A stretch of DNA of 64,000 nucleotides from a virus, in IMG/VR virus record IMGVR_UViG_3300017917_000199, positions 1 through 64,000 of that record. One strand, given 5' to 3'. Positions 8,016-61,961 of this stretch are shown piece by piece. The notes beneath the pieces are model-generated. The model ran no database searches, was not told where the DNA came from, and worked only from the letters and a program-made list of their open reading frames with translations. Position numbers and translations under genes: made by a program. How positions within the stretch are numbered: position 1 is the first letter of the stretch; each line of letters starts with the position of its first letter.

Positions 8016-8489
8016 TTATTTACCATTTTTCTTATTGTTCTCTGCCTCGGCAACACGTTTACGTAAGCTAGAACTACTAAAACTATGGTCACGACGGTTG
8101 AAGATATGGTGAATACCTCTGCCAACTCCCTCGTTGCGGCCAGTAAAGTTCGTATCTTCGTATTCTACACCTAACACGCGAACGTCTAATGGTAGTGTCA
8201 ATATCAAATCGACCAAATCACGCTCAGTCTCGTACACTACGATTTCATCTACGAAACGACATGCACTTAATTGTATTTGACGCTCTACTAAACTTTGTAC
8301 AGGTTTATTTTTAGTATCGGGTCTATCAATAGTAGGGTCAGTTTGTAGACCACAAATTAAATAATCACAATGGTTCTTAGCTTCTGCTAACATTGCAATA
8401 TGCCCTGCATGTAATAAGTCAAAGGTACTGAAAGTGATACCAATCTTTTTACCTTGTTCTTTAAGTTCTTTAATTTTATTAAAAATCAT
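8016..8489 (-). CDS. Cytidylyltransferase-like nucleotidyltransferase
   Basis: 157 residues. TFSTFDLLHAGH (20-31) holds the HxGH nucleotide-binding motif and SSSSLRKR (about 138-145) the C-terminal phosphate-binding motif, as in glycerol-3-phosphate and ADP-heptose-type cytidylyltransferases. It would activate a small phosphorylated substrate with CTP. ATGA overlap with the gene upstream. Sugar or glycerol activation would fit the epimerase and glycosyltransferases nearby; substrate undetermined. Confidence 0.82.
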   Translation of the reverse strand: MIFNKIKELKEQGKKIGITFSTFDLLHAGHIAMLAEAKNHCDYLICGLQTDPTIDRPDTKNKPVQSLVERQIQLSACRFVDEIVVYETERDLVDLILTLPLDVRVLGVEYEDTNFTGRNEGVGRGIHHIFNRRDHSFSSSSLRKRVAEAENNKKNGK

Positions 8490-18757: not shown

Positions 18758-19327
18758 TTATTGAAAGATGTGATGGTTATCTTTACCGTATACTTTAATG
18801 TATTTTCCAGCAAGTGCATCGGCCATCACCTCAATTGGGCTACCTGGATAGCTGTCACCTGGCTGAATCATGTTTAATTCACTTTGGCGACAATGAACCA
18901 TTTCGTGGAAAACGGTTCTAAGGATATCTACTAAGTTACGGTTCTTTGCGTATACCCAAACTTCGTTAGTTCCTTCGGTATGACGACCTGTGTGGTGACC
19001 ATCTTGTGCCTCCTCGGTGTCCATACTTAGTTCTATTTTGGGTATTGTTTTTAGATGTAGTCTGGGTGCTGCCCATTTTACAAATTTATCTACTTCATCT
19101 TGTAAATCACAAGTTGTATTCTCATCTAATTTAGACTTGATCCAATCGTCTGGAGTGCTGTGAAACTTGCGTACAAATAAATCATGTAATGCTTTACCTG
19201 TTATCTTATGCTTGCTGGCTACTTTACGCATTAATTTATCAATGGTATCATAGTCGTGTTTAGCCAAAGAAGGTAACTTCTTAGCTAATTCTATTTCAGG
19301 AGCTTCATGTATTTCAGAGTAACGCAT
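18758..19327 (-). CDS. Zinc metallopeptidase with capsid-targeting-like N-terminus
   Basis: 189 residues. HEMVHCRQ (141-148) is the zincin HExxH helix and SPIEVMADALAGKY (163-176) offers the downstream Glu (E166) as third ligand, a gluzincin-like layout. N-terminus MRYSEIHEAPE matches the pattern of other proteins here: short amphipathic segment then IHE|A, a possible prohead-protease site as in T4 internal proteins. Inference: packaged in the head and injected, where it could cut a host protein. A late element sits 5 bases before the ATG with no SD, so its late mRNA may be leaderless. Confidence 0.72.
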   Translation of the reverse strand: MRYSEIHEAPEIELAKKLPSLAKHDYDTIDKLMRKVASKHKITGKALHDLFVRKFHSTPDDWIKSKLDENTTCDLQDEVDKFVKWAAPRLHLKTIPKIELSMDTEEAQDGHHTGRHTEGTNEVWVYAKNRNLVDILRTVFHEMVHCRQSELNMIQPGDSYPGSPIEVMADALAGKYIKVYGKDNHHIFQ

Positions 19328-19332
19328 ATATG

Positions 19333-19340
19333 TATTTATC
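19333..19340 (-). promoter_or_regulatory. Late promoter GATAAATA, leaderless geometry
   Basis: GATAAATAC on the minus strand, 5 bases from motif end to ATG 19327. T4 late transcripts begin about 6 bases after the element, that is at the start codon. Confidence 0.6.
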
Positions 19341-19429
19341 CCCGCTTACTTTATACGGGAGCCACTAACGCGGGCTAGTGAAATATCGCGGACGCATTAC
19401 CGTACGACAACGGGCCCTAAGGTTGGGTA
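19341..19429. other. GC-rich gene-free spacer with inverted repeats
   Basis: About 90 bases between the SNase stop and the metallopeptidase late promoter, clearly richer in G+C than its surroundings. CACTA and TAGTG flank an 8-base loop, and several CG-rich half-sites can pair. No open frame and no tRNA T-loop sequence. May be the structured 3' end of the SNase operon or a small RNA. Confidence 0.35.
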
Positions 19430-19864
19430 TTAGTTACACCAGGATTGCTTTGCATCCCCATAATATTCACGTGCGTATCCGTTAGCAATTAATGCTGAAC
19501 GTAGACTTTGACCGTTTAGTATAATATCACCTAAAACACGACCACCAAACTTATCCCAATCATATAACACAACTTGGCGCTTTTGACTGGCACTGATTAA
19601 TTCTTTTGTAAACTTACTTGCTGCCTGACCACGAGCATCCTCAGCAGGACATTTTGCTCTGAATCCTTTTTCAGGAGTATCAACACCGTAGATACGAACA
19701 GCCAATTCTTTCTTCAATGGTGCTGGTAAGAATGGAGCTTCAATAACAACAGTATCACCATCACTTGCTCTTAGTATATTTGCATCATACATAACACCTT
19801 GTGGTTGCTTTTGTGCAAATGCTAATGTTGGTAATAGTAATAATGTTATTAGTAAGTTTTTCAT
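19430..19864 (-). CDS. Secreted thermonuclease-like nuclease (SNase fold)
   Basis: 144 residues. Signal peptide MKNLLITLLLLPTLAFA with cleavage before QKQ. Mature domain has RASDGDTVVI, RIYGVDTPEKG (Arg, Asp and Glu of the active site) and FGGRVLGDI with the second catalytic Arg. Calcium-dependent DNA/RNA hydrolysis expected in periplasm or outside. ATGA-coupled behind the 182-residue gene. A periplasmic nuclease made by a phage could exclude other phage DNA or salvage nucleotides. Confidence 0.85.
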   Translation of the reverse strand: MKNLLITLLLLPTLAFAQKQPQGVMYDANILRASDGDTVVIEAPFLPAPLKKELAVRIYGVDTPEKGFRAKCPAEDARGQAASKFTKELISASQKRQVVLYDWDKFGGRVLGDIILNGQSLRSALIANGYAREYYGDAKQSWCN

Positions 19865-20409
19865 GGTACATCCCTTGAGGTCATTGTTGAATCTATTTTT
19901 CTAAACACTTCGTTTCCAGTCCAACGCCACGGACTTTGTGCTGTTTCTTCACCTAATTCATATGCTTTGGGATTTATAAGTAAAAATTCTGTTCCGTTAC
20001 TAGACTCTCTAGTTTTTATGTCCCAGTTGGGTAGTAGACGTTTAACCATTTTAGCATACAATCCGGTGCGTGAATCACCTTTAGATGAAAATGTGATTTC
20101 TAAAACTTTGTTACCGTATTCTTCTAAAAAGTTTCTAGTAATATCTACAACAGTTGACATTACTTCTGCTGAATTTCCAGTACCTGTCTTACCAAACAAA
20201 TCTTTGTTGCCTTCATGCTCGTCATCACGCTTTACTCGAAATATAATTTCCCAACGTGTTGGATCATGTTTCAAATACGTGTATGCATACCATAGATAGT
20301 TAACGCCACCAACAGTGAAATAAGCAGTTGCTTCTTCACTGCCACGAAATCCCCATTCCCAGTTCTTACCGGGTTTGAATAATTCAGTTATAAACTCAGT
20401 AGCTCTCAT
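19861..20409 (-). CDS. Capsid-signal protein with domain shared with the 733-residue NTase protein
   Basis: 182 residues. Begins MRATEFITEL, the same nine residues as the next gene upstream, ending at ITE|L. The body has TGNSAEVMSTVVDITRNFLE followed by ITFSSKGDSRTGLYAKMVKR. The 733-residue protein at 24182-26383 has a matching block (GDAQRVFATVLHAIQEFL, then ISFSASKE and SRAKLYDRLVKR), so this is a stand-alone copy of that module. Function unknown. ATGA overlaps on both sides tie it to the GNAT-kinase and SNase genes. Confidence 0.65.
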   Translation of the reverse strand: MRATEFITELFKPGKNWEWGFRGSEEATAYFTVGGVNYLWYAYTYLKHDPTRWEIIFRVKRDDEHEGNKDLFGKTGTGNSAEVMSTVVDITRNFLEEYGNKVLEITFSSKGDSRTGLYAKMVKRLLPNWDIKTRESSNGTEFLLINPKAYELGEETAQSPWRWTGNEVFRKIDSTMTSRDVP

Positions 20410-21404
20410 CTTTTATAATATTGTTGCAAGACATTGCTGTTAAATCCAACGTCAACAATGACAGGATTGCCTTTATATATGCCCCAGTTTGCGGCTCTAG
20501 TAAAGTCTCCTAACTCAACATCAAATGAACTATTCAATTCAGCAAGTTTGTTTGCATACTCGGAACAGGTTTCAATGTCATCGTCACTCATGCCTTGCTC
20601 TCGTAATTTATCTGCATAACCTTGAGGTAATCCTAGATAGCGTTTTTTACCTGTAATTGATGTTGCGTAGTTCACTAAGAAAGTTAAACTAGGACATTTT
20701 AACAAACTACACAATTGCTTTTCATTTGCCTTAGTAGCCATTTCAGTATGAATCCAACTTGGTTCACGATTCTGTTCATCATAGTCAATCAATGGGATTA
20801 GTATGCCCATTTGGCTAGCATAACCATCATCTAATATACTTGCTTCAACACTATTCTGTGCTAAGCCTTTTTGGTTCTTAGCAATTTTTAATACTGTAGG
20901 ACGACCTTCATATTCAATGATAGTAGCAACACGACTAGATCCAGTACCTAATTTCTTAGCACGGTCTAAGGCATACTGTAATCTTGACTTGAATGTAGTT
21001 TTTTGCTGACGCATCTGCTCTGGGTCCCAATCAGCCGGGAGAGGCATCTCATCAATTACTTCAGTTGCTTCCCAAACATATGCATCTTCACCGCGATGTT
21101 TATCCCAGAATCTACTACCAGCATTAGTTTGGTCGTGACTTCTATTAATAACGTAACCTTCGTTCTTTAGAAAGTCATACATTGACTTAGCAATGCCACG
21201 ATTGCGATGGTCATCATGGACCCAAAGCATTTGTGGATATAATTCTTTATCTTCTTTAACAAATTCTACGAAAGCCAATGGAGTTTTAGTAGCAGGATCA
21301 TATGCTTTGATTTTTAATGCGCTATTGTTGAAGGCATACCCCATAATCAAACCATTGTACCTGGCTATCTTTTTGTCTTCAGTAATAAACTCTGTGGCTC
21401 TCAT
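20406..21404 (-). CDS. GNAT acetyltransferase fused to a kinase-like domain, with capsid signal
   Basis: 332 residues. MRATEFITED is the capsid-targeting-like start (ITE|D). GNAT domain about 15-110: LAFVEFV, then LWVHDDHRNRGIAKSMYDFL, the acetyl-CoA-binding R/Q-x-x-G-x-A loop. About 150-325 resembles a small protein-kinase fold: LGTGSSRVA glycine loop, VLKIAK with K173, and NWGIYKGNPVIVDVGF with D318 in the metal-binding position. The HRD loop is not clear. Inference: an injected dual modifier of host proteins, analogous in delivery to T4 Alt. Coupled to dps upstream and the 182-residue gene downstream. Confidence 0.7.
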   Translation of the reverse strand: MRATEFITEDKKIARYNGLIMGYAFNNSALKIKAYDPATKTPLAFVEFVKEDKELYPQMLWVHDDHRNRGIAKSMYDFLKNEGYVINRSHDQTNAGSRFWDKHRGEDAYVWEATEVIDEMPLPADWDPEQMRQQKTTFKSRLQYALDRAKKLGTGSSRVATIIEYEGRPTVLKIAKNQKGLAQNSVEASILDDGYASQMGILIPLIDYDEQNREPSWIHTEMATKANEKQLCSLLKCPSLTFLVNYATSITGKKRYLGLPQGYADKLREQGMSDDDIETCSEYANKLAELNSSFDVELGDFTRAANWGIYKGNPVIVDVGFNSNVLQQYYKR

Positions 21405-21841
21405 TCACGCTCTTTTTTCAAAATACTACGAATGAACCAAGCCTTTTTGCCGTACAAGTCTTGTAATTCAGCCATATAATTTTCAATGCCGTGTTGGTTC
21501 TCGTTAGCAGCTTCATCAAACATTGCTGTTACTAATTGAAGCATTGTTTCACAATCCTGCAATGTTTCAGCGAACATTAGTTCAGCACGAGGAATCTTTG
21601 TTTGGTCTTGAATGATTGATAACTGACTGTAACGAGTTAAACTACCGGGTGTGTAATGGCCTAGTATTCTGATATATTCTGCAATCTTGTCGATAGTACC
21701 TGCTACATCACCGTATAAGTTATCAAAAAACTCGTGGTATTGCGGAAAGTTGGAACCTTCTACGTTCCAATGAAAATTTTGACTTTTAATAGCAAAACTC
21801 TGTGTGCTTGCTAGTAACACTTTTAAATTGTCTGATAACAT
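21401..21841 (-). CDS. dps: Dps-like ferritin-fold protein
   Basis: 146 residues from ATG 21841 (MLSDNLKVLLASTQ). Dps signature: KSQNFHWNVEGSNFPQYHEFFDNLYGD-type first helix pair with the ferroxidase His/Asp/Glu set (H at NFHWN, D/E in the following helix), then ETLQDCETMLQLV and a final helix. Forms dodecamers that oxidise iron and cover DNA. The start makes a TAATG overlap with a 15-codon leader. In a phage it could shield DNA from oxidative attack, or act in the virion. Confidence 0.82.
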   Translation of the reverse strand: MLSDNLKVLLASTQSFAIKSQNFHWNVEGSNFPQYHEFFDNLYGDVAGTIDKIAEYIRILGHYTPGSLTRYSQLSIIQDQTKIPRAELMFAETLQDCETMLQLVTAMFDEAANENQHGIENYMAELQDLYGKKAWFIRSILKKERE

Positions 21842-21888
21842 TATCTTGGGTATCCTTTTAAATTCCAATAGAAGTCATAATCTTTCAT
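21841..21888 (-). CDS. 15-codon leader peptide coupled to dps
   Basis: Encodes MKDYDFYWNLKGYPR. Its ATG overlaps the stop of the 473-residue gene (TAATG) and its stop overlaps the dps ATG (TAATG). The dps SD (AAAAGGA) lies inside it. Exact tiling suggests that it is translated and serves to carry ribosomes into dps; an independent peptide function is possible but unproven. Confidence 0.5.
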   Translation of the reverse strand: MKDYDFYWNLKGYPR

Positions 21889-23309
21889 TATTTAAGGCCT
21901 TTCATAATGGCACTTTCGTTTTTCTTCTTGCCAGCGCAATGTGCTTTTTGACTGAAGCCTTTAGGATTGCTACAGTTGATGCTGTCTTTGTATTTTTGAC
22001 TCCACTTTTCATCAATCTGTTCTTCTTCAATACTTTCACTCTTTGTGCCCCAGTTGTTAGCGCCTTTTTTACGACACTGAACTAGTGCACCGCTTGCATA
22101 AGCACTAGGCCATACTTTATAACGGCTCTTTACTTTATAGTAGCAAGCATCTTTCTTTTCGTTGATTAACAACTCACTGAACATAGGTCCACCGCATTCT
22201 GGGCATTGCTGTGCTTCTTCGACCTCTTGTTCTTCGTTGGTATTCTTTACACAGTTTGGATATTTCTTACCAAACATAGTTTTCATACCTTCTTTGTGAT
22301 AGCCTTTCCAACATGCTTCGTCTAACTTATCTTGTAACTTGTTCAACGCTAATTCAAGTTCTTGGACTCTTACTCCGCGACCTTGTTCTTTAGCTATTGC
22401 AATAAGATTCTTTAGACTATTAATCTTATCTTGTAGCATCGTTTCTTTAGTCGTTGGACTAGCATTGTCTAATGCACCTTCGTTACTCTTTTTCTTAGTA
22501 GCAACATTCTTAGCAGGACCTCTGCGTTCTGGATTAGGATCTTCTCTACGCTTTTTAGCAGCCGCATACTTACGGCCCTTCTTACCTAAGGCATGCGCTT
22601 TAGCTTGTGGCAAACACTTTGGCTTACCTTCACTATCATCACCTCTAGCACAAGCACCGCGAATCTTACCATCTGGACCAAATCTTACCCATTTTTCTTT
22701 GAACCATTTGCGTAAGTTTTCATCTACTTGTTCTTCCGCCACACCTTCTTCTTTCTTGGGTGTATTGACTGGAACAGTTTTATATACACGCTTTACAGGA
22801 TCCCAAACAGTTTTGCGTTCACCTTGTTTAGCCATTTGCTTTAACGCTTGAACCGCTGATTGAAATTTAGGACCATAGTCAGCTTCTTTAGTTTCGTTCA
22901 TACCTTCAGCATTGCTGATACGCTTTTTTAGTTGACTGATTTGGTCAGCAATTCTTTGCTGCTTACTTACAAATGAATAGTCATCGCTGTATTGATAGTT
23001 AGGATCAAAGCCTTTTTGTAACTGTGCTAGTTGTGCTTTTAGTTGTTCAACATTTTGTTTGTCAGCTTGCATACTAGCTTGCTGTTGTTGTTTTGCAGCA
23101 TCAGTACTTGCTTGCTGTTTTGCACGTTGAGCCTCATCATCCTGTGCTTGCATTACTTTTTCAGCAAAGTATTTGTCATCAGCAGGAATACCATACTTCT
23201 TTGAGTATGCATCTATATTTTTTAATATGTCAGCCTTGCGAGTTCTATACTCTTGCTGCATGGCTGCAATATCAACAGCTTCGGTTAAACCTTTGACAAT
23301 GTTGCTCAT
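21888..23309 (-). CDS. Segmented capsid-signal protein with repeated Cys/Lys modules (DUF5872-like)
   Basis: 473 residues. Start MSNIVKGLTEAVD ends in LTE|A, a perfect prohead-protease consensus. A Gln/Ala-rich coiled coil (about 45-130) follows. Then separate modules: KWVRFGPDGKIRGACARGD with a basic GRKYAAAKKRRE tail (about 210-265), DEACWKGYHKEGMKTMFGKK (about 335-355), CPECGGPMFS zinc-knuckle (about 374), YKVWPSAYASGALVQCRKKG (about 400-420), and CSNPKGFSQKAHCAGKKK at the end. The linkers are Glu-rich with further x-E|A sites (LDE|A, VEE|A). Looks like a string of small DNA- or RNA-binding domains cut apart after packaging. Confidence 0.6.
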   Translation of the reverse strand: MSNIVKGLTEAVDIAAMQQEYRTRKADILKNIDAYSKKYGIPADDKYFAEKVMQAQDDEAQRAKQQASTDAAKQQQQASMQADKQNVEQLKAQLAQLQKGFDPNYQYSDDYSFVSKQQRIADQISQLKKRISNAEGMNETKEADYGPKFQSAVQALKQMAKQGERKTVWDPVKRVYKTVPVNTPKKEEGVAEEQVDENLRKWFKEKWVRFGPDGKIRGACARGDDSEGKPKCLPQAKAHALGKKGRKYAAAKKRREDPNPERRGPAKNVATKKKSNEGALDNASPTTKETMLQDKINSLKNLIAIAKEQGRGVRVQELELALNKLQDKLDEACWKGYHKEGMKTMFGKKYPNCVKNTNEEQEVEEAQQCPECGGPMFSELLINEKKDACYYKVKSRYKVWPSAYASGALVQCRKKGANNWGTKSESIEEEQIDEKWSQKYKDSINCSNPKGFSQKAHCAGKKKNESAIMKGLK

Positions 23310-23310
23310 A

Positions 23311-24138
23311 TTAATCTTTCTTTACTTTCTCGGGAAGACCCTTGTGTTTTGTCTTAGCAAAATCTTTTGCTGCTTTCTTTGGCATTGATTTAGCTACTTT
23401 AGCAACTTCTTTGCTAGGAGCCTTCATATCACCCTTTTGTACAGCATGTACCATGCCCATGAATTTTTGTTGTTTTTTGCTTACAGCTTTTTCATTAACT
23501 TTTTCTGATTCATTTGCCATGCCACCTGCGATGACACCACCTGGAGACATTTCATCAATGACATGTTCATAATCTTTCATGCTTAGTGTTTTACCACGAC
23601 TACCTCTAGCAACTAATTTCTCTGCTAGGTCATGTAGATCCATATCAGTGTTAGCGTCTTCTCTTGCGTATTCTAATAATCTGATTAATAATGGAACATC
23701 TAATTTAACTGTATCTGTGGGGTTCATTGAATTTTCAGGTTTACTCAACAATCCAGGCTTTAGCTTATGACCTTTGCCTACAGCAATAATCTTATCTTCT
23801 TCATGTAAGTCAGCTTCTTTGACAGGCTCAGGCTTATTTTTCATTTCTTTACGAACTTCAGCCTTAGTCTTGCCATACTTCTTTTTGAATTCTTCGTCTG
23901 ATAAACCATCAGGACCACCTTTTAAATCCATAGAAAGTTGCTTTACAGCACCTTCTGTAATTGAATTAGCGAATGGTTTACTTGTTTTCTTGCCCTTGAA
24001 TAAACTACCTACTTTTTGATCTCCGTAGATACTAGCGTTTCTTGTTTTAGTTGCGCCTAAGGGACTTGATACTGTAGCTACAGAACCTGAGCCAGTAGCT
24101 CCTGCAGAAGTTTCAGTAATTATTTGATTGATTTTCAT
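23311..24138 (-). CDS. Segmented capsid-signal protein with C-terminal DUF3008-like module
   Basis: 275 residues. Start MKINQIITETSAG (ITE|T). A second site, NSITE|GAVKQL, occurs near residue 63. The middle (about 140-205) is helical with LIRLLEYAREDANTDMDLHD. The last 60 residues (SKKQQKFMGMVHAVQKGD, then DFAKTKHKGLPEKV) match the small DUF3008 family, and are preceded by KVNE|KAV. Multiple x-x-E sites between compact units suggest processing into several packaged peptides. Late promoter upstream; the 473-residue protein follows in the same unit. Confidence 0.6.
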   Translation of the reverse strand: MKINQIITETSAGATGSGSVATVSSPLGATKTRNASIYGDQKVGSLFKGKKTSKPFANSITEGAVKQLSMDLKGGPDGLSDEEFKKKYGKTKAEVRKEMKNKPEPVKEADLHEEDKIIAVGKGHKLKPGLLSKPENSMNPTDTVKLDVPLLIRLLEYAREDANTDMDLHDLAEKLVARGSRGKTLSMKDYEHVIDEMSPGGVIAGGMANESEKVNEKAVSKKQQKFMGMVHAVQKGDMKAPSKEVAKVAKSMPKKAAKDFAKTKHKGLPEKVKKD

Positions 24139-24181: not shown

Positions 24182-26383
24182 TTAGAACTTCCCATCGGGT
24201 CTCGCTGTTGGGGGTATACCTGCACGACTTACTTTGCTGTAAAACGCTTTTGCGTTCTTTTTGATACTGTCGGGCTTAACATCTACTGTTAATGCTGTTT
24301 TAAAACGAGGATCGTTTTTCTCTTTTTCGCTAGGGATGTATCCTGAGGCTTCTGCTACATTCTGCTTTCTAGTCAATTTAAACACAACACCTTCATCACG
24401 GTCAATAGCTTGTGCATTATACCCCCATTGTTGAGCATAGCGTTTTACTAGTCTATCATATAGTTTAGCTCTACTCATTTCATTCTGTCCAGGCTCAACT
24501 TCTTTACTAGCAGAGAATGATATATTTGTCGGTTGTTCCATTTTCAAGAATTCTTGTATGGCGTGTAGTACAGTAGCAAATACTCTTTGAGCGTCACCTT
24601 CACCTGTTAATTCTAGATTGTTATTTCTCCAAAATGTAATAACAACATCGTCAGGTGACTCATGGTCAAACATGATGGTCAATGGGGTACCATCTGGGAG
24701 TTTTGTCATTGCATCATAATCACCATACTCACTCTTTTCCCATTTAATGGGGTAGGGTTGGTCGAATGCTTCTGCTATTGAACCACGAAATTGATTGTCT
24801 TTTAAACCACCATATGGATTTACTGGAGGTGTTTTTTCACTAGCAAATCGTAATGTATCATCTTCTTCAATAGAAGCATTTTTCTCAAAACCCTTCCACA
24901 TTGCTTTACCTGCAGGAGTTTGTGTGCCGCTAGGTCTAATATCATTGCCCATTGATTTGACCCACTTATAGACTTCTGTTGCGATACCCTTCTTTTGATA
25001 TTCACTCCAAACACTGACATTGCCAGCTAATACATATGGGTCTTTTTTCTTGGCAAATTTGCTGAATATTTTATACTTAGGTTCAGGTTCATAGTCATGC
25101 ACAACGAATCTAAAATATCCTATCTTTTTACCGTCAGGTGTAATTACATCAATTCTAAACTGTTGAGGATATTCATCCGTAACGTTTTGAGCTACTAACT
25201 TTAATGGACCTACATCTTTAATGTCAATTTCTTTTTCAGCGTGAAAGTCTTTTTTAACTACTTCTGGATTAATCTTTTCATTTACATTATATGTAGGATC
25301 AACCTTCTGACGCTTCATGCCCTTAGGTTGATTCTTATCTAATGGATCAATATCAGTTGTTGTAAGACCCGTTTTTTCTAAATCTTGTATGTACTCGTGT
25401 TCTTCTGGTTCGCTGCCAAATGACATTATAGTGCTTGGTGGACCTTGACCAAAGTCATGGTGACCTAATCCTTTTAAGTTGCTGATATGTTGTCCTAGTT
25501 TATACCAGTCATAAACATCACTTACATCTACCTTTACTGTACCAGCTGGCATAGTAGGTTTGAATTCTGGTCCAGGTGGAGGACCGTTTGGATCATAATC
25601 TTCATCGGCAATCTTAGAAAACTCTTTAGATAGTTTGTCTTTAAGTTTATTTTGTTCTGGCTTCTTATACATAGTTTCAATAGTTAAAATTTCACTATGT
25701 AACTTGTCTCTAAGTGCATAAAGTTTTTGAATATATCCTTGACTACGCAATGCTTTAAATGCTAAATTCTCGGGACCAAACTCGCCTCCCTTATCTAACC
25801 CTGCTTGTCTATATTGTTTTATTTTCTTTAGTACTTTATTAACTTTATCTATGTCACTGGATTTTAATGCTCGTTTTATGATATCTAATAATTTATCGTA
25901 TTTTGCTTTTGAGGCGGTTTGGTCAAAATTTGCTCTACGCTTAGTGGGGATTCTAAGCCATTTATCATTCAATATACTGTACTCACCTAGACTTACGACT
26001 GGTTCTCTGGCGTCTTGTACGTATAATTCTACTGGAACCCCGTGGATAGTAATATCGTGACTGTCGTTATAAATTGATTTTTTAGCTTGGAATAATTCCT
26101 TATAGACTTCATTTTGTGGCAAGTTGCCTAAGTCTACAAGAATGTGTAAATCTAAATCTGAGTGCTTTGTGTAGCTATATGCAGCGTTTGAACCTGATAC
26201 TGTGATATCCTTAACATCTAAATCGTGGATGCCTAGTTCTTCTATAAAATCCTGTGCTATCAATAATAGTTGTTTTTTAACTTTAGGACGCAATTTCTGC
26301 CCAGCCCATAGTTTAGGGTTGAGTTCATCGTGAAAAGTAACCGCATCTGAAAGTTTAAAACTGTGTAGTTCGTTTAATTGCAT
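24182..26383 (-). CDS. Polymerase-beta-type nucleotidyltransferase fused to GNAT and phage modules
   Basis: 733 residues. N-terminal domain: LWAGQKLRPKVKKQLLLIA, then SGSNAAYSYTKHSDLDLHIL (63-82), the GS...DxD motif with D76 and D78. A GNAT-like block follows at about 440-500 (SVWSEYQKKGIATEVYKW). Next comes the module shared with the 182-residue protein (about 580-675). The chain ends with VAE|ASGYIPSEKEKNDP and a conserved AFYSKVSRAGIPPT-type tail. Start MQLNELHSF is a weaker capsid signal. Would transfer NMP and acetyl groups to unknown targets. Late element 6 bases before ATG, no SD. Confidence 0.72.
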   Translation of the reverse strand: MQLNELHSFKLSDAVTFHDELNPKLWAGQKLRPKVKKQLLLIAQDFIEELGIHDLDVKDITVSGSNAAYSYTKHSDLDLHILVDLGNLPQNEVYKELFQAKKSIYNDSHDITIHGVPVELYVQDAREPVVSLGEYSILNDKWLRIPTKRRANFDQTASKAKYDKLLDIIKRALKSSDIDKVNKVLKKIKQYRQAGLDKGGEFGPENLAFKALRSQGYIQKLYALRDKLHSEILTIETMYKKPEQNKLKDKLSKEFSKIADEDYDPNGPPPGPEFKPTMPAGTVKVDVSDVYDWYKLGQHISNLKGLGHHDFGQGPPSTIMSFGSEPEEHEYIQDLEKTGLTTTDIDPLDKNQPKGMKRQKVDPTYNVNEKINPEVVKKDFHAEKEIDIKDVGPLKLVAQNVTDEYPQQFRIDVITPDGKKIGYFRFVVHDYEPEPKYKIFSKFAKKKDPYVLAGNVSVWSEYQKKGIATEVYKWVKSMGNDIRPSGTQTPAGKAMWKGFEKNASIEEDDTLRFASEKTPPVNPYGGLKDNQFRGSIAEAFDQPYPIKWEKSEYGDYDAMTKLPDGTPLTIMFDHESPDDVVITFWRNNNLELTGEGDAQRVFATVLHAIQEFLKMEQPTNISFSASKEVEPGQNEMSRAKLYDRLVKRYAQQWGYNAQAIDRDEGVVFKLTRKQNVAEASGYIPSEKEKNDPRFKTALTVDVKPDSIKKNAKAFYSKVSRAGIPPTARPDGKF

Positions 26384-26545: not shown

Positions 26546-27553
26546 TTACTTAATTTGACTCCAAACTCTTTCACGTATCTGTTTTGTTAGACTGTCTGGT
26601 AATGGTACATAATCTAAGTCTGTAGCATCTTTCTTGCCATTCTTAAACGCCCAGTCAAAGAACTTTAATACTTCTTGGCTTCTTGCTTTATTGTCTGGAT
26701 TTTTGTACATAATCACAAAGCTAGCACTAGAGATAGGCCAAGCATTTTGACCCTTTTGATCCACAATGCTTACACCCATACCAGGAACACTAAACCAATC
26801 AGCACCGTCAGCAGCGGCAGCAAATGTAGTATCGTCTGGGTCAACGAATTTACCTGCACGATTTTGTAACTGTAGATAATTCATATTGTTCTTTTTGACA
26901 TACGCATACTCTACGTAACCAATCGCACCTTTAACTCTATTAACGTTAGCTGCAACACCTTCATTGCCTTTACCACCTACACTGCTTGCAGCTGGCCACT
27001 TGACAGCAGCACCCTTACCTACTTTGTCACTCCACTCTTTACTGACTGCTGCTAGGTAGTCTGTAAAGTTGAATGTTGTTCCGCTGCCATCAGCACGATG
27101 AACTACTGTGATATTTGTATCAGGTAATTTTTTTCCTGGATTTAGTGCAACTAACTTGCTGTCATTCCATTTAGTGATTGTACCTAGATATACTTCTGCT
27201 AGTACAGGGCCAGTAATCTTTAACTCACCTGGTTTGAAACCTTCTAAGTTAATTACAGGAACTGTTCCACCTATAATTGTAGGGAACTGTACTTGATTGT
27301 TCTTATCTAAATCTTCACCTTTGACTGGTGCATCACTTGCTCCAAAGTCAACAGTTTTCATATTAATTTGTTTGATACCACCTGAACTACCGATGCTTTG
27401 ATAATTTAAATTATTTCCAGTTGCTTTCTTATAGCTTTCAGCCCACTTAGCATAAACTGGATACGGGAAAGTCGCGCCAGCGCCTGTAATGTCCGCACTG
27501 AATGCGACTGTTGATATTAACAATGCACCTAAAAGTGTTGTCAGTTTTTTCAT
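26546..27553 (-). CDS. pstS: Periplasmic phosphate-binding protein
   Basis: 335 residues from ATG 27553 (SD AAGGAG, 8-base spacing); the longer frame upstream is untranslated leader. Signal peptide MKKLTTLLGALLISTVAFS, mature start ADITGAGATFPYPVYAKW. Phosphate-binding features: SIGSSGGIKQI, DFGASDAPV, and HRADGSGTTFNFTDYL. It captures phosphate for the host PstCAB transporter. A Pho box upstream and terminators on both sides make this an autonomous, phosphate-regulated unit. Well known as a phage auxiliary gene in phosphate-poor waters. Confidence 0.95.
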   Translation of the reverse strand: MKKLTTLLGALLISTVAFSADITGAGATFPYPVYAKWAESYKKATGNNLNYQSIGSSGGIKQINMKTVDFGASDAPVKGEDLDKNNQVQFPTIIGGTVPVINLEGFKPGELKITGPVLAEVYLGTITKWNDSKLVALNPGKKLPDTNITVVHRADGSGTTFNFTDYLAAVSKEWSDKVGKGAAVKWPAASSVGGKGNEGVAANVNRVKGAIGYVEYAYVKKNNMNYLQLQNRAGKFVDPDDTTFAAAADGADWFSVPGMGVSIVDQKGQNAWPISSASFVIMYKNPDNKARSQEVLKFFDWAFKNGKKDATDLDYVPLPDSLTKQIRERVWSQIK

Positions 27554-27587
27554 GTAATATTCTCCTTGTGTGTTTGTATTACACAAA

Positions 27588-27593
27588 TATTTA
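27588..27593 (-). promoter_or_regulatory. -10 element of pstS promoter
   Basis: TAAATA on the minus strand, 11 bases after the Pho box, the distance used by PhoB-activated promoters. No other -35. Confidence 0.5.
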
Positions 27594-27604
27594 CTAGAAG
27601 AATT

Positions 27605-27622
27605 GTGACAATACTGTGACAA
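27605..27622 (-). promoter_or_regulatory. PhoB (Pho box) operator
   Basis: Minus strand: TTGTCAC-AGTA-TTGTCAC, two perfect 7-base direct repeats spaced by 4, i.e. an 11-base period, fitting the Pho box consensus [CT]TGTCA[CT]-N4-[CT]TGTCA[CT]. Host PhoB-P would activate pstS from it. Confidence 0.85.
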
Positions 27623-28635: not shown

Positions 28636-30909
28636 TTATTTTTCTTCTAGGTAATCGATACTTTCGGCAACCTTTGCAGTATCAATAGTTTGTTTGATTT
28701 TGTCCACTTCTTGTTGCAATTGCTCGATTTCCTGATCTTGCTTTTTATCTTCTTCTTGGCTGTGCATTAATGCACGTTGGGCAAACTTAATAAATGCTTG
28801 CTGTTTTGTACTTGCATTGGGATAATGTTGTTTGACATATCTCATCAATCTGTCAGTTTCTGGGTCTGCTGTTACAAATTCGTCATCATCGCGTTTTGAG
28901 ATATCTCTATACTTTAATTGTTCGTCACGTTCCATATCACGCTTTGCACGATGTTGCATTACCTTAGGAGGGTTTTCTAAGTCTTTAGCTGTCCTAGCAA
29001 TGATTCTGCTTTTAGCTTCACTCAGTTGCTGGTAGATTTTAACCTTTTGTTCAGGTGTTGCATGTTCCAACAATTGCTTGTACTTTTCAATAAACTCTTT
29101 CAATTTGTTACCTTTAGCTTTTGGTAAATTAAACTTAGCTAAGTTTTCTTTTGCTGTTCGCATCATACTTAAAACTTCTGCATCACTTAATGACGGACTC
29201 ATAGACTGTCTCCATACAGCAAATTGTTCTTTTTCACTCTTGCTAGGATCCATTAATACTTGACGCATTGGAGTTGCACGAGGACCTTCATGGTAATCTG
29301 GTTTATTAGGATCACTACCAGGAGCTTGTGTATCTTGTCTACTCATTACTTGCATACTGTCAAGACCAAACTTTTTGTATGGTTCGATGCCACTCTTATC
29401 TGGTCTAGTCAAATAACCAAATGCATCTTTTTGGTCAGCACCTACAACTAATGTAACATTGTCATAACCTTTAGCACCCATATCAGCTAACACATCATTT
29501 AGTGTTGGCTTGTCAGGACTAGGCAATCTAAAAATCTTTGCGTACTTAGGAAATTTCTTCTGATACATTTTTAGTTTTGTCTCAGGAGGAATAGGATCAT
29601 CTTTACCAAAGCTACGACTTACAACAAAGAAAGGTGTTGCACCTGTTTTTCCTGCTTGATGTATAACTGCTGAAACTAATGCATCGTGTCCAGTATGTCC
29701 CATACCACGACCCCAACCTAATACTGCTGACTGTTGACCTTTCGCTTCGTTCATTACTGATTCCTTAGGACTCCATGTTTGTTGGCTGATTGTTTTAACA
29801 AACTGTCCTGGTATGTCATACTTGAAAGGCTTACCTGGGTGTGCTTGTGCATAACCTTCAGGCTTAGTTTGTTTAATGCCACCGTGTGTTGATTGCGATA
29901 ATGAAGCTATCAATTTTTCTTTGACATTCATAATGCCTTCAACAGCACCCAATGTAGCTTGCATACCCTTAACATCTGATAATAATGTTTGTGCTTTCTT
30001 GTCACTTAGATTAGCTTTAGCCCACTCAGGGAAATCTCTTGTTAATCCTTCAGTGCGTAAATGTTTGTTTAGATATGTGTACAATTCACCTGCTGGATTA
30101 CTTAATCCTGGCTTAGGTGCTAGATAGTTGTCAATTAACTTACTGTTCTTTTTGATAAATGCTTCTAAGTTAGCAAGTGTTTGTTTGTCGATTTCTTGCG
30201 GTTCTTGTACATATGTTGTACCTTGAACGATAACTCCTGGTACACTTAATTTTTCTGCATCTGGGAATCTTTGTTCATCACTAGAACCTAAACTAGGATA
30301 ATAGCCCGTAACAGCAACCATCATCTTAGATTTTGGAATCTGTTTACCCAATTCACTATCTACTGGGATATGAAATGTAGTAATGTTAGGTTGAAAGTCA
30401 TATGTATTTGTCTCTTTGTTTAACACAGGCATCGCCGATTGACCATCAGGTTTTGTACCTGGATAAAACAATAGCCCACCTTCTAAGTAACCTTGCTTAG
30501 GACTAATCTTTTCAAAGTAAGGCCATAAACTAGCAAACTGATTAGCAAATTGTTGTCTAGCTTTAGGATCACCTGAGCCTGTGCCTAACACAAACTTCTT
30601 TACATCGTCAGGGCTACGCATTACTGTAGGTGCACCACTTGCTGTTTGAGTCTTGCCACTCTTTAAGTATGCCCAAGCATTCTTAGGAATCATACTAAAG
30701 TTACCTTCTTCATCACGGCCCCAGTATACAACAGGCATGCCGTCCCACTTTAACTCAATTGTGCCACCTTCTTCACCCATGTGACTTAAACGCTCAATGG
30801 CGTGCATGGCACCATGACTACCATTGCTCAACACTAAATCTTCAATGTGTTGATATTTGCGACCAACTGTTGGCTTCGCTGCTTCTGATAGTACTTGTGT
30901 TACTTTCAT
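28636..30909 (-). CDS. Capsid-signal protein with ligase-like KxDG domain and HxGH nucleotidyltransferase domain
   Basis: 757 residues. MKVTQVLSEAAKP gives LSE|A, an ideal prohead cleavage site. Domain 1 (about 15-245): IELKWDGMPVVYWG, with K54-x-D-G as in covalent DNA/RNA ligases and capping enzymes, and GYLEGGLLF resembling a later motif. Domain 2 (about 393-555), preceded by MNE|A: VLGWGRGMGHTGHDALVSAV with H405-x-G-H408 of NMN/cytidylyl-type transferases, then PFFVVSRSFGK and VTLVVGADQKD. C-terminal coiled coil (about 715-755). Might seal or cap nucleic acid and make NAD-like cofactors. ATGA-coupled to the NTase upstream. Confidence 0.68.
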   Translation of the reverse strand: MKVTQVLSEAAKPTVGRKYQHIEDLVLSNGSHGAMHAIERLSHMGEEGGTIELKWDGMPVVYWGRDEEGNFSMIPKNAWAYLKSGKTQTASGAPTVMRSPDDVKKFVLGTGSGDPKARQQFANQFASLWPYFEKISPKQGYLEGGLLFYPGTKPDGQSAMPVLNKETNTYDFQPNITTFHIPVDSELGKQIPKSKMMVAVTGYYPSLGSSDEQRFPDAEKLSVPGVIVQGTTYVQEPQEIDKQTLANLEAFIKKNSKLIDNYLAPKPGLSNPAGELYTYLNKHLRTEGLTRDFPEWAKANLSDKKAQTLLSDVKGMQATLGAVEGIMNVKEKLIASLSQSTHGGIKQTKPEGYAQAHPGKPFKYDIPGQFVKTISQQTWSPKESVMNEAKGQQSAVLGWGRGMGHTGHDALVSAVIHQAGKTGATPFFVVSRSFGKDDPIPPETKLKMYQKKFPKYAKIFRLPSPDKPTLNDVLADMGAKGYDNVTLVVGADQKDAFGYLTRPDKSGIEPYKKFGLDSMQVMSRQDTQAPGSDPNKPDYHEGPRATPMRQVLMDPSKSEKEQFAVWRQSMSPSLSDAEVLSMMRTAKENLAKFNLPKAKGNKLKEFIEKYKQLLEHATPEQKVKIYQQLSEAKSRIIARTAKDLENPPKVMQHRAKRDMERDEQLKYRDISKRDDDEFVTADPETDRLMRYVKQHYPNASTKQQAFIKFAQRALMHSQEEDKKQDQEIEQLQQEVDKIKQTIDTAKVAESIDYLEEK

Positions 30910-31625
30910 TTTAAAATATCCAATGTTTTACGGAACCATTCTTGTACAGTAGGTGCTGCAAAGTATTTTTCTTTGATTGCTTTATATTTCTCTGGGTACT
31001 TTTCTAATGCTTTCATCATCTTAGTTGGGTTACCCATGTCATTTGCTGTAGCTGTAGGACCGATTATAATTTTAGCAATCTTATCTTTGTCGTTAGCAAC
31101 CAACTCTTTAGTCTCACGGTCTAGTAATCCTTTATAAGGACTCATCATTAGACTTTGATGACCAGGCAATGAACTCATGTTTGCCAAGTCAGCCCACATT
31201 GCATGTAATGTGCCGCCCTTCATTGTACTATCTGTATAATCGTGTGTATGTAATGGCTGCGCCGCTCTTGCGTTCTCAACTGCCATTAAATCGACTTGAA
31301 CAATTTCATCACCTACACCAGTAGGAACACCAACGTGTACGCTAACGCCTGTACGTGCTGCTGACATACCTTTTTCTTTGAAGTAATCTTCTAATGCTTT
31401 ACGACTTAGTTTTAATTCTTTTGCGGGAAACGCTTTCATCAATTCTTCTGCATCAATCAATGCGTCAATATCAGAACTGATTTCTTTATGACCTGCACTA
31501 CCGATAGGGTACAAATGCACACCTGGTGGTAATACTTTTTCTAATGTAGCAACTGCTCTAGGAAAGTTTTCTTTCTTAATAGGAACAGCTCCTGGTATTA
31601 CATTTCCGCCTTCAAATAAATTCAT
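30906..31625 (-). CDS. Polymerase-beta-fold nucleotidyltransferase
   Basis: 239 residues. IGSAGHKEISSDIDALI (41-57) is the hG[GS]...DxD signature with D52 and D54; VQVDLM (109-114) gives the third Asp (D112). All three catalytic acids are present. Could add AMP/CMP to protein or RNA. Start MNLFEGG is not a clear capsid signal. ATGA-linked with the 757-residue ligase/HxGH protein, so the two likely work together; third nucleotidyl-transfer fold in this region along with the 733-residue protein. Confidence 0.75.
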   Translation of the reverse strand: MNLFEGGNVIPGAVPIKKENFPRAVATLEKVLPPGVHLYPIGSAGHKEISSDIDALIDAEELMKAFPAKELKLSRKALEDYFKEKGMSAARTGVSVHVGVPTGVGDEIVQVDLMAVENARAAQPLHTHDYTDSTMKGGTLHAMWADLANMSSLPGHQSLMMSPYKGLLDRETKELVANDKDKIAKIIIGPTATANDMGNPTKMMKALEKYPEKYKAIKEKYFAAPTVQEWFRKTLDILK

Positions 31626-61595: not shown

Positions 61596-61961
61596 TTAAT
61601 CGGAATAATCTTCTAATTTTAAAATCATGTTTGGAAGAATATCACCCATGTACATACATTGGTCTGTTTCTCTAAGACTTTCTATCCAATTTTCTTCCGT
61701 AGTGTGATCTATGTCGCCCATCAATTTTGATTTATCTAATTTGTTGAGGTCTACCGTCACTAAGGTAATGTTGTCATAACCAGTTCTTTCTTGGTCAGAC
61801 TCAGCATATTCTAACGCAAGGTCGGGATTATCAGTCAAAAATACTGAGTGTTGTCTGCCAGCTTTCAAGCCATGTTTTTTTATAGTTTCAATTGATTCTG
61901 AGGTTCCGTGCCATAATATATTATGACCAGTATCTTCAAAAAGTATCTCGCTTATTCTCAT
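61596..61961 (-). CDS. ADP-ribosyltransferase-like protein with capsid signal
   Basis: 121 residues. MRISEILFED is a capsid-targeting-like start (LFE|D). Then ILWHGTSESIETIKKHGLKA (15-34), VFLTDNPDLALEYAE (40-54), ITLVTVDLNKLD and MYMGDILPNMI, an order seen in ART/KptA-fold proteins (HGTS for the first NAD contact, aromatic/Leu-Thr middle, late acidic region). The catalytic Glu is not certain. T4 Alt is an injected ART that modifies host RNA polymerase, so this is a strong functional parallel. Follows gp13 by one base. Confidence 0.6.
   Translation of the reverse strand: MRISEILFEDTGHNILWHGTSESIETIKKHGLKAGRQHSVFLTDNPDLALEYAESDQERTGYDNITLVTVDLNKLDKSKLMGDIDHTTEENWIESLRETDQCMYMGDILPNMILKLEDYSD

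Follow-up and report, generated by a model that had tools for sequence, protein, structure and literature searches.

Bacteriophage T4 places proteins in its head by means of short leaders: about 10 N-terminal residues are enough for head packaging and delivery (PMC9026906, PMC9958956, PMC5694885), and gp21 removes these leaders; T4 and giant-phage proteases both cleave after Glu (PMC9026906, PMC5694885). In an accepted phage scheme, the Pol-beta nucleotidyltransferase RlaP restores nucleotides and the ligases Rnl1/Rnl2 seal cleaved tRNA (PMC7824862). A cytidylyltransferase, homologous to the HxGH domain considered below, has been detected in virions of cyanophage S-SM1 (PMC3037559) and of S-CREM2 (PMC10665884). 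Capsid-targeting leaders, nucleotidyltransferase-ligase repair pairs and an HxGH protein in virions are thus already known. Here we analyze a locus at positions 28636-31625 of the window, the whole stretch of 64,000 bases under study (bases 1 to 64,000 of the 84,961-base virus record IMGVR_UViG_3300017917_000199). It consists of two minus-strand open reading frames (ORFs), P0002 (30906-31625, 239 aa) and then P0001 (28636-30909, 757 aa), joined by an ATGA overlap.

A preliminary description of the sequence had proposed that these two coupled genes carry three different nucleotidyl-transfer folds (Pol-beta type, covalent KxDG and HxGH) together with capsid-type cleavage signals, and that they could repair, cap or tag nucleic acid, or remake nicotinamide adenine dinucleotide (NAD+), on entry. 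Its observation is confirmed by our analysis, and its interpretation is partly supported. The locus belongs to a T4-like phage, a virus of bacteria: the same record encodes a tail sheath, a tail tube, a DNA polymerase, a clamp loader and a ClpA-like protease, and P0001 has its closest annotated relatives among the T4-like Kyanoviridae. The enzymes bear head-type tags, and therefore the virus probably injects an enzyme kit with its DNA. Our favored reading, which we hold tentatively and at a little less than an even chance, is that the coupled pair forms a nucleotidyl-transfer enzyme set that is loaded into the head, cleaved by the prohead protease and injected, and that acts on nucleic-acid ends at entry. 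What is new is the prediction, from sequence motifs and a structural model, that DUF6267 is a covalent nucleotidyltransferase, and the series of fusions joining DUF6267 with a Pol X-like nucleotidyltransferase and an NMNAT-like domain, with protease-type sites conserved at the junctions. The features of the locus are as follows (a slash marks the putative cut; pLDDT, predicted local distance difference test).

30906-31625, minus strand: P0002, Pol-beta-fold nucleotidyltransferase (invariant catalytic residues, AlphaFold2 model, Foldseek)
31611-31625, minus strand: MNLFE, putative capsid-targeting leader of P0002, LFE/G (E5, G6 and G7 invariant; pLDDT < 50)
28636-30909, minus strand: P0001, three-part protein with leader, DUF6267, HxGH and helical tail (Pfam, phrog_3041, model)
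30883-30909, minus strand: MKVTQVLSE, putative capsid-targeting leader of P0001, cut after E9 (conservation; pLDDT < 50 at 7-10)
29761-30882, minus strand: DUF6267 domain, residues 10-383, putative covalent (KxDG) nucleotidyltransferase (invariant motifs)
30748-30750, minus strand: codon of K54, within KWDG (54-57)
29746-29754, minus strand: MNE (386-388), putative internal prohead-protease site between DUF6267 and HxGH (junction conservation; pLDDT < 50 at 383-390)
29110-29733, minus strand: HxGH (HIGH-superfamily) adenylyltransferase-like domain, residues 393-600 (phrog_3041, Foldseek, motifs)
28639-29109, minus strand: helical or coiled-coil tail, residues 601-757, variable in relatives (model)

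Leader-type motifs are conserved at N termini and at fusion junctions

Both proteins begin with a short N-terminal segment ending in [LI]xE, as T4-type capsid-targeted leaders do (LSE in P0001, LFE in P0002). The preliminary description had pointed to the LSE/A signal at E9 and to the MNE/A site at E388 just before the HxGH domain, both of which are present and conserved at fusion junctions; it had overlooked the start of P0002, MNLFE/G, which is about as short as that of T4 Alt (MELITE/L). An [LIVM]xE motif lies near the N terminus of all 74 non-redundant standalone DUF6267 proteins, and E9 is nearly invariant among 49 diverse DUF6267 relatives. The strongest evidence comes from the junctions within fusion proteins. 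Where the Pol-beta nucleotidyltransferase is fused to DUF6267, [LIVM]xE directly precedes DUF6267 in 23/23 non-redundant proteins, and the strict form [LIM]xE[AGS] is found in 20 of these 23, compared with 1.7% of control windows. Where DUF6267 is fused to HxGH, the motif [LIVM]xE is retained at the junction in 25/25 non-redundant proteins, including MNE/A of P0001. A third LSE/A of P0001 (E631) is left out of the likely cuts, as it falls within a predicted helix.

An [LI]xE in the first 12 residues is found in 18 of the contig's 92 minus-strand genes, against 7.4 in shuffles (0/2000 reach 18). In the block at 18-31.7 kb, which was picked after looking, 8 of 13 genes start with [LI]xE (P ~2e-6). 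When the test is limited to [LI]xE[AG], the enrichment is weak (6 versus 3.2 expected), so that the packaging-signal argument is carried by the looser test together with the junctions.

Other genes of the window have starts of the same kind. Those at 18758-24138 (minus strand), which begin MRYSEIHE/A, MRATEFITE/L, MRATEFITE/D, MSNIVKGLTE/A and MKINQIITE/T and include one weak GNAT match, are possibly a block of packaged proteins. A 733-aa protein at 24182-26383 (minus strand) starts MQLNE/L and has, besides an internal IAE/A, another Pol-beta-type motif (GSNAAYSYTKHSDLDLHILVD); its family, which reaches 1607 aa in one relative, keeps a place two genes downstream of the set formed by the Pol-beta nucleotidyltransferase, DUF6267 and HxGH. 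At 61596-61961 (minus strand), a 121-aa protein carries a leader of this type, MRISEILFE/D, followed by LWHGTS...GLKAGRQHSVFLTDNPDLALEYA. It resembles ADP-ribosyltransferases, with weak matches to ART-PolyVal, DUF3990 and RNA 2'-phosphotransferase, and is possibly an Alt-like or KptA-like packaged enzyme.

DUF6267 has the motif layout of covalent nucleotidyltransferases

Pfam DUF6267 (PF19782) matches P0001 over residues 20-363 with 48.6 bits (cut-off 27). By domain layout this part of the protein, leader included, comprises residues 1-383, and the P0001 model has a mean pLDDT of 87. KWDG (54-57) is invariant in 80/80 relatives of P0001; across these 80 DUF6267 domain sequences K54, W55, D56, G57, P59, G64, F172, P174, N175, E351 and G352 do not vary. 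In the second alignment, of the 49 diverse relatives, the invariant positions are K54-W-D-G-x-P, F172-x-P-N, E351-G352 and K372, and K54, E351 and K372 hold without exception in three phage groups. The motifs follow the order I (KWDG, K54), III (EG[G/D]LL), IIIa (FxPN), IV (PEGY, E351) and V (K372). Motif III reads EGGLL in P0001 and QGDLL in the marine branch, one acid always being kept: E143 with G145 in 38 sequences and D145 in 42. In the model, strands at 51-53, 60-65, 71-75, 140-148, 178-182, 352-355 and 370-374 flank K54 and fall at motifs III, IIIa, IV and V; helical insertions separate I from III and IIIa from IV.

This layout of motifs and strands is that of the covalent nucleotidyltransferases, which include ligases and capping enzymes. 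Motifs I, III, IV and V of that superfamily occur in order in DUF6267, with the Lys and the Glu invariant. From its motifs and strand order, DUF6267 probably belongs to the covalent ligase superfamily. Members of the family are found in hundreds of contigs from aquatic phages, cultured cyanophages and pelagiphages among them. The family has no assigned function, and the literature search found no paper naming it. The named residues K54, E351 and K372 make the prediction testable by a simple adduct assay.

In the Kyanoviridae P-TIM40, Melnitz-3 and HTVC008M, DUF6267 lies between helicase and cytidyltransferase genes, and these genomes gave no match to PF01068 (DNA_ligase_A_M) or PF09414 (RNA_ligase). 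The idea that DUF6267 is a general stand-in for a phage DNA ligase was rejected, since three jumbo-size phages have PF01068 plus DUF6267.

P0002 and the HxGH domain resemble two other nucleotidyltransferase folds

P0002 is supported by its model as a Pol-beta-fold nucleotidyltransferase that is nearest, by fold, to the family-X DNA polymerases. Its motifs are GS (42-43), SDIDALID (D52, D54) and VQVD (D112), that is, the GS motif, the [DE]x[DE] acids and a third acid on a later strand that are typical of the superfamily. Across 47 diverse relatives, E5, G6, G7, G42, D52, D54 and D112 show no variation, and S43 is nearly invariant. The AlphaFold2 model has a mean pLDDT of 92, with residues 1-5 as the sole stretch below 50. 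The top Foldseek matches in the PDB are family-X polymerases (Pol mu, lambda, beta and TdT; E 7e-6, TMq 0.5, ~14% identity), and among predicted viral proteins they are unnamed phage relatives and viral Pol X. A Pfam scan of P0002 gave nothing over cut-off; the Pol-beta thumb model PF14791 was matched weakly by 5 of the 47 family members (best E 0.004). The fold matches and the invariant residues agree with the GS...DID...D112 assignment made in the preliminary description.

In the second half of P0001, PHROGs family phrog_3041 ('cytidyltransferase') matches residues 381-597 (E 7e-16). The domain contains H405-T-G-H408 and ATPMR (545-549), which correspond to the [HT]xGH and SxxxxR-type motifs of HIGH-superfamily adenylyltransferases. 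G407, H408 and R549 are invariant among relatives, whereas much of the marine branch has T in place of H405. Foldseek matches this part to NadD (6buv; prob 0.99, TMt 0.51), and CTP_transf_like was found in 15 members among the P0001 relatives. The NMNAT-specific models TIGR00482 and TIGR01526 stayed far under cut-off in cyanophage relatives and gave no match in P0001. A NadD/NMNAT-like HxGH domain at residues 393-600 is supported by the model, with weaker fold evidence than for P0002. The tail is helical over 601-756, with low confidence at 667-681, and its length varies among homologues. Of the three different folds originally claimed, the Pol-beta and HxGH ones are upheld by structure or family and the KxDG one by motifs.

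Two further genes lie outside the coupled pair. A small cytidylyltransferase-like protein (8016-8489, minus strand; CTP_transf_like E 1e-11) is encoded away from the module, and a PstS-like putative phosphate-binding protein, identified by eye, is encoded between the nucleotidyltransferase-type genes (26546-27622, minus strand). PstS is an auxiliary metabolic gene of cyanophages.

The three domains are arranged and fused in several ways

To describe arrangements we use N for the Pol-beta nucleotidyltransferase, D for DUF6267 and H for HxGH, with joined letters denoting one gene and spaced letters separate genes. In a sample of 313 loci, which is biased by the queries used, we found ND 86 times, N D H 73, D H 60, N DH (as here) 35 and NDH 19, plus others. 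N and D are adjacent or fused in 226 of these loci; the pair is thus conserved together, as its proposal as a module had supposed, with N absent from three marine Kyanoviridae. DUF6267 is the constant member, present in all seven relatives' genomes tested, and H adjoins it in the same three Kyanoviridae and in one jumbo-size contig. HTVC008M has a polynucleotide-kinase-like gene between DUF6267 and HxGH. T4 has none of the three domains.

At 76924-81210 of the contig there is a block of a helicase, a small virion-like protein and leader-bearing genes that elsewhere flanks the ND fusion. In this contig the block lacks the ND fusion, as though the module had been relocated to 28-31 kb.

A possible packaged end-repair enzyme set

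The favored reading can be put as a sequence of steps. Short N-terminal [LI]xE leaders would carry P0002 and P0001 into the prohead core, where the prohead protease would strip the leaders and cut P0001 after E388, separating DUF6267 from HxGH. The separate enzymes would ride in the mature head and enter the cell together with the DNA. There, the family-X-like P0002 may put lost nucleotides back on ends, DUF6267 may form a covalent lysine-nucleotide adduct at K54, of the ligase or capping type, and seal the ends, and the NMNAT/NadD-like adenylyltransferase part may supply or restore NAD+. The likeliest substrates would be tRNA that has been broken or the DNA of the phage itself. What we observe are the sequences with their motifs and conservation, the arrangements, the sites at the junctions, and the fold of N and, more weakly, of H; from these we infer that DUF6267 and N are packaged, that cleavage takes place and that the chemistry is covalent, as well as the substrate and a repair role. 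Invariance of the catalytic residues in all three domains argues for this reading, and a Pol-beta nucleotidyltransferase beside a ligase-type enzyme would, by analogy, fit the RlaP-Rnl1/Rnl2 scheme. The polynucleotide-kinase-like gene in the HTVC008M cluster also counts in its favor.

A number of results weigh against the packaged end-repair set. On the ligase side, Foldseek with the whole multi-domain P0001 model gave no ligase among the 50 matches listed, the 104 P0001 relatives had no Pfam ligase match among the 25 families listed, and DUF6267 alignments found no ligase and no sequence relative among PDB sequences. The adenylation-domain model of NAD+-dependent DNA ligases likewise gave no match in P0001 at E<=1, nor among the 25 families listed for the 104 relatives. 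With hhalign, KWDG and EGGLLF were paired with the KxDG and DGEL of DNA ligases only at E 0.006-0.011 (shuffled controls 0.07-0.56, reversed 0.035); the true order and a segment-swapped control had equal scores, since these are driven by motif I, and comparisons of DUF6267, whole or with inserts removed, with RNA ligase, DNA ligase and Rnl2 families were not significant. Support for the earlier proposal of a ligase-like site at K54 comes from motifs I, III, IV and V, invariant and in order, and from the strand order of the model; the fold and profile comparisons did not add to it. P0002 was rejected as an RlaP, as neither it nor its 47 relatives matched PF10127 at E<=1, and the RlaP model found nothing in seven phage genomes while control genomes gave matches. 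N was not found in the three Kyanoviridae that keep DUF6267 and HxGH. As to packaging, only 41 of 62 standalone HxGH proteins have a leader; the unrelated ClpA-like neighbour family has [LIV]xE near its start in 22/23, for which reason the motif alone is not specific and is no proof; and the S-CREM2 authors noted that their virion detection may be contamination (PMC10665884).

A rival explanation is that the proteins are not packaged and are ordinary intracellular replication or repair enzymes, with their genes next to those of a helicase and a polymerase and with [LI]xE kept for other reasons. DUF6267 adjoins replication genes in several groups, including Kyanoviridae and the ND group, which also counts against the packaged set, and the motif is short and present in one unrelated family. 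However, the sites persist at fusion junctions, where a start codon or initiation signal is unneeded, and the HxGH homologue was detected in virions of two phages; we regard this explanation as rather improbable. Only slightly better placed, and still unlikely, is the view that the injected proteins are effectors that nucleotidylate proteins or RNAs of the host at an early stage of infection, much as RNA polymerase is ADP-ribosylated by T4 Alt. The leader type is that of Alt, GNAT and ART-like (ADP-ribosyltransferase-like) proteins are among the other leader-bearing genes of the contig, and Pol-beta nucleotidyltransferases and GNATs are listed as protein-modifying domains of phage conflict proteins (PMC5512222). 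Yet DUF6267, the constant partner, is a putative KxDG enzyme, and the known relatives of such an enzyme work on polynucleotide ends or caps; N, moreover, resembles thumb-bearing polymerases more than protein-modifying nucleotidyltransferases.

Equally doubtful in our judgment is NAD+ supply as the main task, with a packaged HxGH acting as an NMNAT that rebuilds NAD+ at entry, against NAD+-depleting defences or for metabolism, and with N and DUF6267 acting on related nucleotides or serving as NAD+-using helpers. HxGH has NadD/NMNAT-like matches, phages rebuild NAD+ via NadV, NadM and NadR (PMC9503650), and the S-CREM2 study suggested that the virion cytidylyltransferase has a role in NAD+ (PMC10665884). 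Against this, the ND group has DUF6267 with N and without an adjacent HxGH, so NAD+ synthesis is not the common task; in addition, no NadV-like gene was noticed among the scanned window genes, and the matches to NMNAT models lie far under cut-offs.

Returning to the packaged end-repair set, a more ambitious version of it is a long shot: DUF6267 would be a new NAD+- or ATP-using family of covalent nucleotidyltransferases, within a virion polyprotein that is cut into enzymes by the prohead protease, beside an NMNAT and an end-filler resembling Pol X. Should the ligase draw adenosine monophosphate from NAD+, the fused NMNAT would convert the released nicotinamide mononucleotide back to NAD+, and the end-repair kit would be self-recycling and active before any phage gene expression. 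More generally, the junction protease sites suggest that T4-like phages build polyproteins so that a single leader takes several enzymes into the head. This would widen the internal-protein strategy of T4 Alt and IPI from single effectors to a pre-expression enzyme set.

Comparison with known systems

Like the T4 internal proteins and Alt, the proteins of this locus have a short N-terminal [LI]xE leader and would be delivered with the DNA; unlike them, they are other enzymes, with proposed internal cuts between enzyme domains. RlaP with its Rnl1/Rnl2 sets is similar in coupling a Pol-beta nucleotidyltransferase to a putative KxDG enzyme (PMC7824862), whereas P0002 and P0001 are without a PF10127 or PF09414 match and have capsid-type leaders and an NMNAT-like domain. 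P0002 shares the palm-type catalytic triad and a thumb-like region with the family-X polymerases (Pol beta, lambda, mu and TdT), but it is shorter, at 14% identity, TMq 0.5 and a root-mean-square deviation of ~5 A, without a family-level sequence match. The HxGH part shares the HxGH and SxxxxR-type motifs and a fold match (prob 0.99) with NadD/NMNAT, but has the variants HTGH and ATPMR and sub-threshold scores with NMNAT models. Another close system is DUF6267/phrog_455 of the Kyanoviridae (cyanophages, pelagiphages and Methylophilales phages). It is without the Pol-beta partner, and P0001, in which HxGH is fused, stands at about 22-27% identity to it; yet residues 20-363 of P0001 exceed the DUF6267 cut-off, phrog_455 includes a fusion of DUF6267 and HxGH, and the order DUF6267 then cytidyltransferase is common to both.

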